Source of the DNA: Sipunculus nudus
Taxonomy: Eukaryota > Annelida > Sipuncula > Golfingiida > Sipunculidae
Direction of reading: 5' to 3'
Length of the DNA: 64,000 nt
Assembly: GCA_026874595.1 (NCBI GenBank)
Contig: CM049318.1
Location: 36,167,956-36,231,955, forward strand
Shown: in pieces, positions 1,312 through 52,069 of the stretch
Numbering within the stretch: the stretch's first letter is position 1
Layout: each line of letters opens with the position of its first letter
The notes under the pieces: generated by a model
Database searches by the model: none
Seen by the model: only the letters and a program-made list of their open reading frames with translations
Told to the model about the DNA's origin: nothing
Program-made: the position numbers and the translations under genes

Positions 1312-4300
1312 GTATACGCTAAATCCATGCAAATCACTTTATAACATCTGTCCTTGTATTTTAAAGGATAGTTACATGGCCTATTGGTTGCATAGTTTGT
1401 TGTTAAGGATGAGGCTATAATAACCATATGATGAGGTTTATATATTAGTATTAAGCCTTGGTGATTTCAGGTTTTATTTGCATCGGGCTTGAAAATATCT
1501 AGAAGTTATAACCTGTAGTTCAGAAATTTGTGTGAATATGTTGAGATTTCACTTTTTTCTTGCATATTACACATCATACGGATGTTCTTATTAATTTAAT
1601 GGTACAGTGACTCGCTAATCATTCCTGTCATTCCCCTTGTCTTTTTTAGCCCTCAGCCCTTAGGCTGATGGGCTAATGTCATCACCCAAGCTGTCCGTCA
1701 GTCCGTCCGGCGTCCGTTAACTTTTACCTTGTGAGCGGGATATCTCAAAAAGCATTCACCGTCAGAATTTTATTTCCTCGGTAAAGATGTATATCGACAA
1801 AATCTCGGTCAAGTTCGAAGATGGGTGACCTTGACCTGTTTTTCTACATTTCAGAGCTGATTATAGAAAAACACTTAGACACTTATTACTCAGGAACTAT
1901 TTGGTGGATTTTTACAAAACTTACTGTGATTATTCGGACTGATAGTCTGTACCTGCTACACAAGTTTGGTGGCGCCATTTACAGTTTCTGATTTTAAATG
2001 AATTTTTATCGGATTTTTCAACTTTTGGCTTGTGAGCGGGATATCTCTAAAAGGATTCACCGTAGGAATTTTATTTCTTCGGTGAAGATGGATATTGACA
2101 AAATCTCGGTCAAGTTCAAAGATGGGTGACCTTGACCTATTTTTCTATGTTTAAGAGCCGATTATAGAAAAACACTTAGAAGCTTATATCTAAGGAACCA
2201 TTGGGTCGATTTTTACAAATTTTACTATGGTCATTTGGACTGAAAGTCTGTACCTGCTCCACAGGTTTGGTGGCGCAACCTACAATTTCTGATTTTTACG
2301 AATTTTTATGGGATTATTATTATTTGGCATTGTGAGCAGGATATCTCTAAAAGGATTCACCACAGGAATTTTCATTTATTTGGTGATGAGGTATATAGAC
2401 AAAATCTTGGTCAAGTTCAAACATGGGTGACCTTGACCTAATTTTCGACATTTTAGAGCTGATTACAGACAAAGACTTAGAAGCTAATTTCTCAGGAACC
2501 ATTGAATCTTACTGTGATCATTGGGACTGATGGTCTGTACCTGCTGCACAAGTTTAGGGGCACCACCTACTGTTTCTGATTTTTAATGAATTTTTATCAG
2601 ATTTTAACTTTTGGCCTTTTGTGTGGGATTTCTCCAAAGGTATTCAACACAGGAACTTCATTTTTTTCAGTGCTATTGCATATTTACAGTATTTTGGTAA
2701 AATTTAAAGATGGGTGTTCTTGACTGACTTATCGAGGTCACAGAGCTTAGAATAGAAAATAACTTAGGAGCTTATTTCTTAGGAAGCATTTGGTGGATTG
2801 TTATGAAACATGATATATACCTCTCCAATTTAAATTTATAACATGTACAGATATACATCCACATGACAACAAATATTTCGTACTTGTTACTGTAACCACC
2901 TATAAACACTGTTATTTTGGCTGAGGGCTTTTATCAGCTTTTGCTGATATTCTAGTTTATGAGTGATCTTTCACTTCACATTGCTTCGATTGGATTTAGA
3001 AACTATCTTTTAATGTTAGACATCACCTTCTCTCAGATGATCCAATATTGTCAGTGTATAACTAGAAAAATTTCTACCAAAACACATACAGCATTTAATT
3101 TTGTATAGTATCATTAGTCATATATAAATATATATATATATATATAGTTAGATCTGCAATGATGTTTAGTATGACTGTGAAACCTCAAAATTATGACCAC
3201 CAATGGGACGTCAGTAAAAACGTTTGTAAAAAGCAAAAAGGAATGGTGACCATGAAAAAATGTATTATTTATAATATGTTGAGGTGGTCACTAACAGTGG
3301 TGGTCATAAAGTGAGGTTTTACTGTAATTATTTCTACAGAGATCAAAATAATAGCACCTCTATAATGTTCTGTCTTCCCAGGAAGCTTACCAGATATGAC
3401 GTCTTCACAGCAGTCATCAGTTGCTGTATCACCAGATGTTCTACTAAACCTACCACCAGGTCAGACCAACTGTCATACACCACAATTTTACCAATATTTA
3501 TTCAGTTTAAGTCACCCTGGTCACAGGCCCTTGAAATCATATAATTATTGATAATACCACTGTGTCAGAAGGCCCTCCGTGATCAGAAGTGTAAACTGTT
3601 TATTCATAACCTAACAACATTACACAAACTAACCTCCCTCATGCGCTGGCCTGAGTGATTCTGACTGACACAAAAATCAACTCGCTTTTCAGTCTCATAC
3701 CACATATATTCAGCAGTAACATGGGCAGAGCGGCGCTTTTCCAATTTAAATCCCTTAAACCTGTTATAAGAAGGCCAGAAAACAGCGATCCCACTGCACA
3801 CAGGCTATTTGTTTTGTTTATTTCCATGAGTTTATAACATCTCCTGTATATTACAGTATATTATTTTTGTTTATAATTGGCATTAAAGATTGTAAAATAG
3901 GCCATTGAAAAAAAATCCTATAAAGTACACAATTATCTTTCACCTTTTAACAACATGGCTATGTTTACTAACAGCTTGTAGATTCATGAAATCACGCATC
4001 CATCACAGAGGTGTAATAAACACTTTCTTTAACAAGAAATACTAGAGTTAATTAATATGGATGCAGAGTAAGCCATAAATTATATATATTCTATCGAAAA
4101 GATAAGTGAATGGCTTGCTTTAATCCTGGTTTATGGTCCCAAGCTTCCTTGGAATGGGGAACATTGATTTGGGTTTGTATGTCAGTCCGTCTGTCTGTCT
4201 GTCTGTCAGGTTTTCATTTCTATGCGATAACTCTCCTAAATATTATCCAACACCAAATTTGGATCAATGATTGCTCTCCTGCATACCTTTGTTTGGATTG

Positions 4301-51053: not shown

Positions 51054-52069
51054 CAAGGGCACCGCAAAGCGGAGCATCCCCTCGCATGGGAGCATAATGA
51101 TATGGGGTGTATTATGAAGGTGTTAAAATGAGGAGGGGAGTTGTGTGAGCTTTAGCTTTGACGTCAAACTCAATAAGTTGTACGTGTATCGGTGGGTGAG
51201 GTATATGTGCGAGATGAAAGGTTTTGGTCAAATGGTTTGGCTTGAAATGGAACCACAAGCTTTTTCAAGAAGTGGGTGCTGTGGCCATGACCTTTGACCC
51301 CCATGACCTCAAAATGGATAGGTTTCTTCAACAATGGGTGGGTAAGCCATATGTGCAAGATGAAAGGTTTACGTCAAAAGGTTGTACTTAAAATGGGTCC
51401 ACAAGCTTTTTCAAGAAGTGGGTGCTGTGGCCGTGACCTTTGACCCAGTGACCTGAAAATCAATAGGTTTCTTCATCTATGGTTGGGTGAGCCATATGTG
51501 CGAGATAAAATGTTTAGGTTAAACGGTTTTGCTTAAAGTAGGTCGACAAGCTTTTTCCAGAAGTGGGTGCTGTGGCCGAGACCTTTGACCCCGTGATCTC
51601 AAAATGGATAGGTTACTTCTTCCATGGGTAGGTAAGCCATATGTGCCAGATGAAAGGTTTAGATCAAACGGTTTTGCTTAAAATGGGTCCACAAGCTTTT
51701 CAAGAAGTGGGTGCTGTGGCCGTGACCTTTGACCCCGTGATCTCAAAATCAATAGGTTTCTTCATCTATGGGTGGGTGAGCCATATGTGCGGGATGCAAG
51801 GTTTAGGTCAAACGGTTTGGCTTGAAATCGATCCACAAGCTTTTTCAAGAAGTGGGTGCTGTGGCCGTGACCTTTGACCCCTTGACCTCAAAATTGATAG
51901 GTTTCTTCATCCATGGTTAGGTAAGCCATATGTGCGAGATGTAAGGTTTAGGTCAAACGGTTTGGCTTGAAATTGATCCACAAAGCATTTTCGGACGGAC
52001 AGACGGACGGACGGACAGACGGACGGACGCTATATCCCTTTCGCAACTTCGTTGCGAGGGGAACATAAA
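51054..52069 (-). mobile_element. Family E element with 145-bp core units
   Basis: Read on the minus strand: 5' end atgttcccctcgcaacgaag with hairpin partner gttgcgaaaggg, (CYGT)n at 51992-52029, and five core units marked by agtgggtgctgtggcc (plus strand) at 51271, 51417, 51562, 51706 and 51851. The inverted word gcgagggga precedes the hairpin CCGC-TTT-GCGG and then CTTG before TTTT. The open frames inside are readings of the repeat and share no domain. Confidence 0.75.

Follow-up and report, generated by a model that had tools for sequence, protein, structure and literature searches.

Probable non-autonomous Helentrons with satellite-like cores, including nested composites, in a 64-kb stretch of the Sipunculus nudus genome

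A 64-kb stretch of the Sipunculus nudus genome (the window, taken from a 1.43-Gb assembly of 153 contigs) carries five families of repeat elements, here called A to E, and raises the question of how so many are mobilised side by side. A preliminary description considered their sequences unrelated, gave them all the layout of Helentron-associated elements such as DINE-1 and the bivalve pearl elements, and suggested that one replication machinery mobilises many unrelated cores. We consider it very likely that A to E are non-autonomous Helentrons (HINEs) with satellite-like tandem cores. The best account of them is one of signal and cargo, in which the outer ends are the signal and the content between them is copied; our confidence extends to this whole reading, nesting included. 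Most tests place A to E as HINEs, and D is structurally the weakest member. They are a fresh set within a kind already described in oyster and flies, with unusual clarity of composites in which one HINE lies inside another.

The ends of the five families lie where the preliminary description placed them: the borders are sharp, and copies elsewhere stop matching at the same point. For A, B, C and E, loci fetched from the genome cease to match at the same place and have different flanks. All five families are present, but they are not five free elements, as D lies inside C and a copy of A inside B (Table 1). Further C-type copies begin at 21859, 23238, 32032 and 48303 (+) and at 56665 (-).

A, B, C and E conform to the HINE layout; D does so only partly. 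A short subterminal inverted repeat (subTIR) was found in each family, as had been proposed. It is 11 bp long and exact in A, and has one mismatch in B (11 bp), C (14 bp), D (13 bp) and E (11 bp). An equally good pair appeared in none of 200 shuffles for A, C and D, in four of 200 for B and in one of 200 for E; in three old or truncated copies the pair is at chance level (21859-23232, 34/200; 48303-49399, 97/200; nested A, 35/200). A 5' inverted repeat of 8–13 bp with at most one mismatch, scored without a shuffle control, adjoins the 5' subTIR in all five. Every family also has the expected tandem core, with periods of 301 bp (A), 180 bp (B), 336 bp (C), 280 bp (D) and 145 bp (E). The window contains ten GTCY tracts, whereas none of 20 Markov-1 controls has more than one. 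Seven of the ten, matched by reading, lie directly downstream of a recognised element 5' end; the other three are at 4185, 20531 and 22355. The (CYGT)n tract claimed for every 5' end is present in A, C and E, and B has by reading an irregular TTCCGTC-like repeat in its place. Stems of 5–7 bp occur at the 3' ends of A, B, C and E, and the folds of A, B and E have z-scores of -3.73, -2.07 and -1.93 against shuffles. The GTCTGT tract at 4185-4208 has no recognised element 5' end upstream and perhaps marks an old or different HINE.

The proposed terminus rule, a CTAG or CTTG end abutting a T run, holds. Counted by reading in the window and the fetched loci, TT follows 33 of 36 distinct 3' ends of these families (A 7/8, B 6/6, C 11/12, D 2/2, E 7/8); one of the three ends without TT, in locus L006, has a clean border and the other two are degraded or shifted. 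The genome-wide count of this context was made for C only. The 20-base C 3' end has 8,976 exact copies, 4,487 and 4,489 on the two strands, and 8,320 of these (92.7%) are followed by TT (backward-read controls, 0). On the left side, the T run of 20 C copies comprises five Ts in 15, six in three, seven in one and four in one, and in an earlier mixed sample of 17 C ends, runs of 0–3 belong to a few copies that are old or altered. Left runs are mostly 5–6 Ts in A and B, 1–2 in E and none in D before its terminal G; a long 5' T run is therefore a trait of A, B and C only.

These ends also bear on whether A to E could be non-autonomous canonical Helitrons. Canonical Helitrons start with TC, end with CTRR and insert between A and T, and CTAG is a 3' end of their type. 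Canonical-looking Helitron Rep sequences do occur in the genome (L009 and L010). However, A to E lack the 5' TC, possess subTIRs, have CTTG ends (C and E) as well as CTAG ends, and lie in a T/T context, not the A/T site that PMC4067079 gives for canonical Helitrons. We regard this alternative as very unlikely.

The nested pairs show how such elements combine. D at 16684 was rejected as an independent element, since all eight of its best copies, the window copy included, have identical C-core flanks. A free D copy was found in L006 (2977-3862). Genome-wide, there are 963 exact occurrences of the 30-base D/C junction (468 + 495; backward-read control, 0), and D-type 3' ends have 8,865 exact copies (control, 1). 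Among the first 100 D ends listed, 18 have an exact C end 159–162 bp downstream in the same orientation (matched by hand), and most show no such pairing; because of these pairings, 963 is a lower bound for the composite, C(D). Eight C(D) copies have a mean identity of 99.2% over 1,352 bp (28 pairs, lowest 99.0%). Their right flanks differ from each other and all start with TT, which also follows 13 of 13 further C(D) ends. For the other pair, an A-type 5' end comes after the B core in all eight B loci read, the window's included, and B-core sequence resumes after the A 3' end in the four of the eight where a scan found that end. From the 963 junctions and the A insert in all eight B loci, it follows that the nested pairs were amplified as units; an entire second HINE can serve as cargo, as the composites show. 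At their level of identity, the C(D) composites represent a young burst, and two 3' ends with roughly 9,000 exact copies each permit tests. We found no earlier account of HINE-in-HINE composites amplified as units among the titles, abstract openings and some passages and sections that our literature search covered, in which subscription journals are thinly represented.

An alternative is that satellite arrays or fragments were multiplied by duplication, segmental or local, and that their end-like motifs are products of chance. Two D copies within a single C array, separated by 4.75 kb, do look local: these C(D) copies (G000:C5:64953268 and C5:64958018, L051) lie, by reading, in the same phase of successive core units and may reflect local duplication. 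As a general account, duplication is contradicted by the precision of the borders, which are the same in copies with different flanks. The equal numbers of C ends on both strands, and subTIRs and GTCY tracts in excess of shuffles and controls, also speak against it, and we consider it extremely improbable.

The preliminary description anticipated empty sites with a T|T target and no duplication, and in the few comparable sites nothing is duplicated beyond Ts. Where a C(D) copy is inserted in a C core (L114/L104), the two flanks, once joined, can be aligned with uninterrupted C monomers, and the difference at the site lies in the number of Ts: 10 in the joined flanks compared with 5–6 in the window monomers shown, a gain of about four. 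The nested A of the window has 4 + 3 flanking Ts, compared with seven in uninterrupted B monomers by reading, so there is neither duplication nor T gain. L051 also lies in a C core by reading, though the T run there differs between monomers. At L108/L049, an imperfect repeat (85% over 41 bp) between the far-left and right flanks was not taken as a target duplication.

The mechanism that we propose would require only an end pair to be retained: on the 5' side a subTIR and its inverted repeat, and on the 3' side a second subTIR, in most cases accompanied by a hairpin, and then CTWG. A Helentron Rep-helicase-endonuclease would start at the outer 5' end, copy a single strand in rolling-circle fashion as far as the outer 3' end, and insert the copy into an oligo-T stretch; the best fit for C is insertion between TT and TT, with the element bringing about three Ts. 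Newcomers would land in and beside resident elements, because these themselves offer T runs; insertions into the T runs of other elements are represented by 38 C-C junctions and by L114/L104 in a C core. Anything between a working end pair, another HINE included, would then be copied as cargo, which could yield C(D), B(A) and possibly new pairings of cores and ends.

One core type is present under two sets of ends in the window. Contrary to the preliminary description, the cores are not all unrelated, since the 145-bp core of E recurs in two elements with C-type ends. It matches the element at 32032-34293 with 69% identity over 484 bp (E-value 5e-55) and stretches of the element at 21859-23232 with up to 78%; in the latter, a second GTCT tract lies between a C-core unit and the E-type core. 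The composites offer a concrete route by which cores could move between end families. Tentatively, we suggest that nesting may be a main engine of new HINE families here: resident T runs would serve as landing pads, a nested pair whose outer ends are still functional would become one replicating unit, and later losses would leave a core under new ends. If true, this would explain how one core comes to lie under unrelated ends without one machinery reading all ends. One genome here shows the spread of satellite-like arrays by rolling-circle-type elements.

Two short motifs are distributed unevenly among the cores. AGGTCA half-sites, of the nuclear-receptor type, occur at 3.5–12.6 per kb in the cores of families A, B and E and of two C-ended elements (21859 and 32032). 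The remainder of the window has 0.77 per kb, and the C and D cores have none (a post hoc observation). The palindrome GGTGGCGCCACC is found repeatedly in the cores of C and D as well as in C-type copies, including 22193-22204, and has no exact copy in the 48 kb of the window outside elements.

Elements also stand head to tail. Two such pairs, one of B followed by C and one of C followed by C, lie in the window, and genome-wide there are 38 exact C-C junctions with 3–12 bases between the ends. Their spacers are TTT (11), TTTT (2), TTTTT (4), TTTTTT (4), TTATT or TTTATT (5) and others (12). From the T-run density of the window, 3–9 junctions would be expected, assuming about 9,000 C 5' ends, so the excess is modest and uncertain. 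We fetched 20 of the 38. In the 13 of these with TTT or TTTT, eight left halves, with L117 itself included, share 92% identity or more with a single C(D)-type 3' part, and the right halves are diverse.

Rolling-circle concatemers, as opposed to separate insertions, would account for the 11 junctions with exactly TTT, given that none of the 20 C copies with a fetched left flank has three Ts; the old unpaired copy at 48303, however, does have three. Junction halves often belong to different subfamilies, and L123 and L124 share their left halves (100%) but not their right halves (68%). For this reason concatemers are disfavoured as the general cause of C-C junctions, and we find them distinctly unlikely. 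We read the TTT spacer as the remnant left after a newcomer splits the five-T run of a resident.

Enzymes of the kind that such insertions would call for are encoded elsewhere in the genome. A search with the Helitron_like_N family yielded 195 candidates, of which 150 were scored, and 143 matches; the 30 loci read comprise the canonical-looking pair and a larger Helentron-like set of several lineages. At one locus (L063/L064), an open frame of 2,235 codons encodes domains of Rep, PIF1 helicase and endonuclease type; upstream of it, and in frame with it, lie a stretch of 252 codons and a single stop. A second lineage with an endonuclease domain (L073) has a further 192-codon frame downstream, so at least two Helentron-like Rep lineages carry this domain. 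In the window itself, a tblastn comparison with the Rep domains of the 30 loci and the 2,235-codon frame gave one chance match (E-value 0.97), and this was the only gene search made. The DNA of L063/L064 has no match to the window at E-value 1e-3. Its similarity to a sister copy continues as far as the sequence read extends, 5.6 kb beyond the gene, and a scan for a hairpin with CTWG gave one candidate, whose upstream partner is weak. In L036, some 1 kb separates a Rep domain from a B-type 5' end upstream of it; this end is directed away from the domain and was set aside as a neighbour, not a partner. After the Helentron gene of L063/L064 (G000:C11:50376000-50393999), about 0.2–1.5 kb from the low end of L063 and also in the sister copy, there is a HINE-like element in the opposite direction. 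It starts with TTTTTT then GCTTGCCGGAAATC, with an inverted repeat, and has a 147-bp core.

A single Helentron machinery could still move all five families if it recognised shared structure (5' inverted repeat, 3' hairpin, CTWG and oligo-T) and not sequence. This agrees with the layout that A, B, C and E have in common and with the shared TT context of the families, as well as with the common layout of oyster HINEs that are unrelated in all modules (PMC7492417). Yet the five subTIRs differ, exact D ends are nearly as numerous as exact C ends (8,865 compared with 8,976) although D lacks hairpin and tract, and several Helentron-like Rep lineages are present. In addition, non-autonomous families are described as more than 95% identical to their own partner in PMC4067079. 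We therefore think a single machinery unlikely. Because subTIRs differ among the families, several Helentrons are favoured over one; with at least two endonuclease-bearing Rep lineages and partly shared cores, the initial picture of one machinery for many unrelated cores is not supported by the present analysis.

Several observations weigh against the signal-and-cargo account. No partner with Rep and helicase that shares the A to E ends, as the preliminary description had envisaged, was found: none of these ends occurs as an outer end in the 18 kb around the L063/L064 Rep gene or in the 5 kb after the L073 Rep gene, and the outer ends of those elements lie beyond the stretches read. The 3' hairpin had been claimed for every family. 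The 5-bp hairpin of C folds no better than shuffles (z -0.26), and D has no convincing one (none in the stem scan; fold z -0.89), nor did the tract scan of the window find a (CYGT)n tract in D. Genome-wide, 656 of the 8,976 C ends are not followed by TT. The gain of about four Ts at L114/L104 and the nested A without T gain point to differing numbers of element-borne Ts, and the latter conflicts with three. Finally, the empty-site evidence is thin, with a single nested C(D) compared by alignment and the others by reading.

Table 1. Elements recognised in the window, with positions counted from its first base
Feature	Position	Strand	Remarks
Family A element	1648..2955	+	T run 1642-1647 before; 5' AGCCCTCAGCC; 3' subTIR and hairpin, CTAG then TTT; copies L001-L008
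Family B element with nested A copy	12402..14698	+	copies L055-L062
Short A-type copy inside B core	13944..14314	+	A-type 5' end at same B place in 8/8 B loci
Family C element with D inside, composite C(D)	14708..18036	+	3' end in L047-L054, L094-L106
Family D element inside C core	16684..17854	+	5' GTATCCGCC, 3' TATTCTAG
C-ended element: one C-core unit, second GTCT tract, then E-type core	21859..23232	+	
5' part of further C-ended element, adjoins 21859..23232 element	23238..23540	+	5' end only
C-ended element with E-type 145-bp core	32032..34293	+	
Old C-type copy, 3' end degraded	48303..49399	+	
Family E element	51054..52066	-	3' end CCCTTG then TTTT; copies L039-L046
C-type element	55200..56665	-	5' end at 56665; C core 55480-56576; 5' end only located

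Besides the elements of Table 1, the window has a C-like 3' end at 21388-21422 (CCATGGGTCCCTAG then TT), without an assigned 5' end. At 36710-36936 and 39537-39653 there are tandem repeats of a unit with GGCCCATAATGTAATAA and its reverse complement, which form an inverted pair about 2.6 kb apart.

The likeness to mollusc repeats is one of architecture only. The bivalve pearl elements (CvA, CvE, CvG) resemble A to E, by description, in having short central-repeat arrays between conserved ends and are classed with HINEs; their central repeats are of about 160 bp (PMC7492417, PMC11136912). DINE-1 and other HINEs are linked to Helentron proteins with Rep, helicase and endonuclease, as found in this genome, and differ in that their partners were identified by more than 95% family identity, whereas none was found here (PMC4067079). 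Another close description is that of the 11 Cg_HINE elements of the Pacific oyster (PMC7492417). These share with A to E the 5' subTIR with an inverted repeat, satellite-like central repeats and a 3' subTIR, and with some of the families a GTCY-type microsatellite and a 3' palindrome. They too occupy T-rich sites without duplication, as several families per genome, and include related flanks with unrelated repeats as well as double arrays. No autonomous partner is linked to them; the authors could not relate ten autonomous oyster elements to the Cg_HINEs. Some core periods are longer in S. nudus (280–336 bp), and D is without tract and hairpin. A further difference is that here whole HINEs lie inside other HINEs and the pair is amplified.
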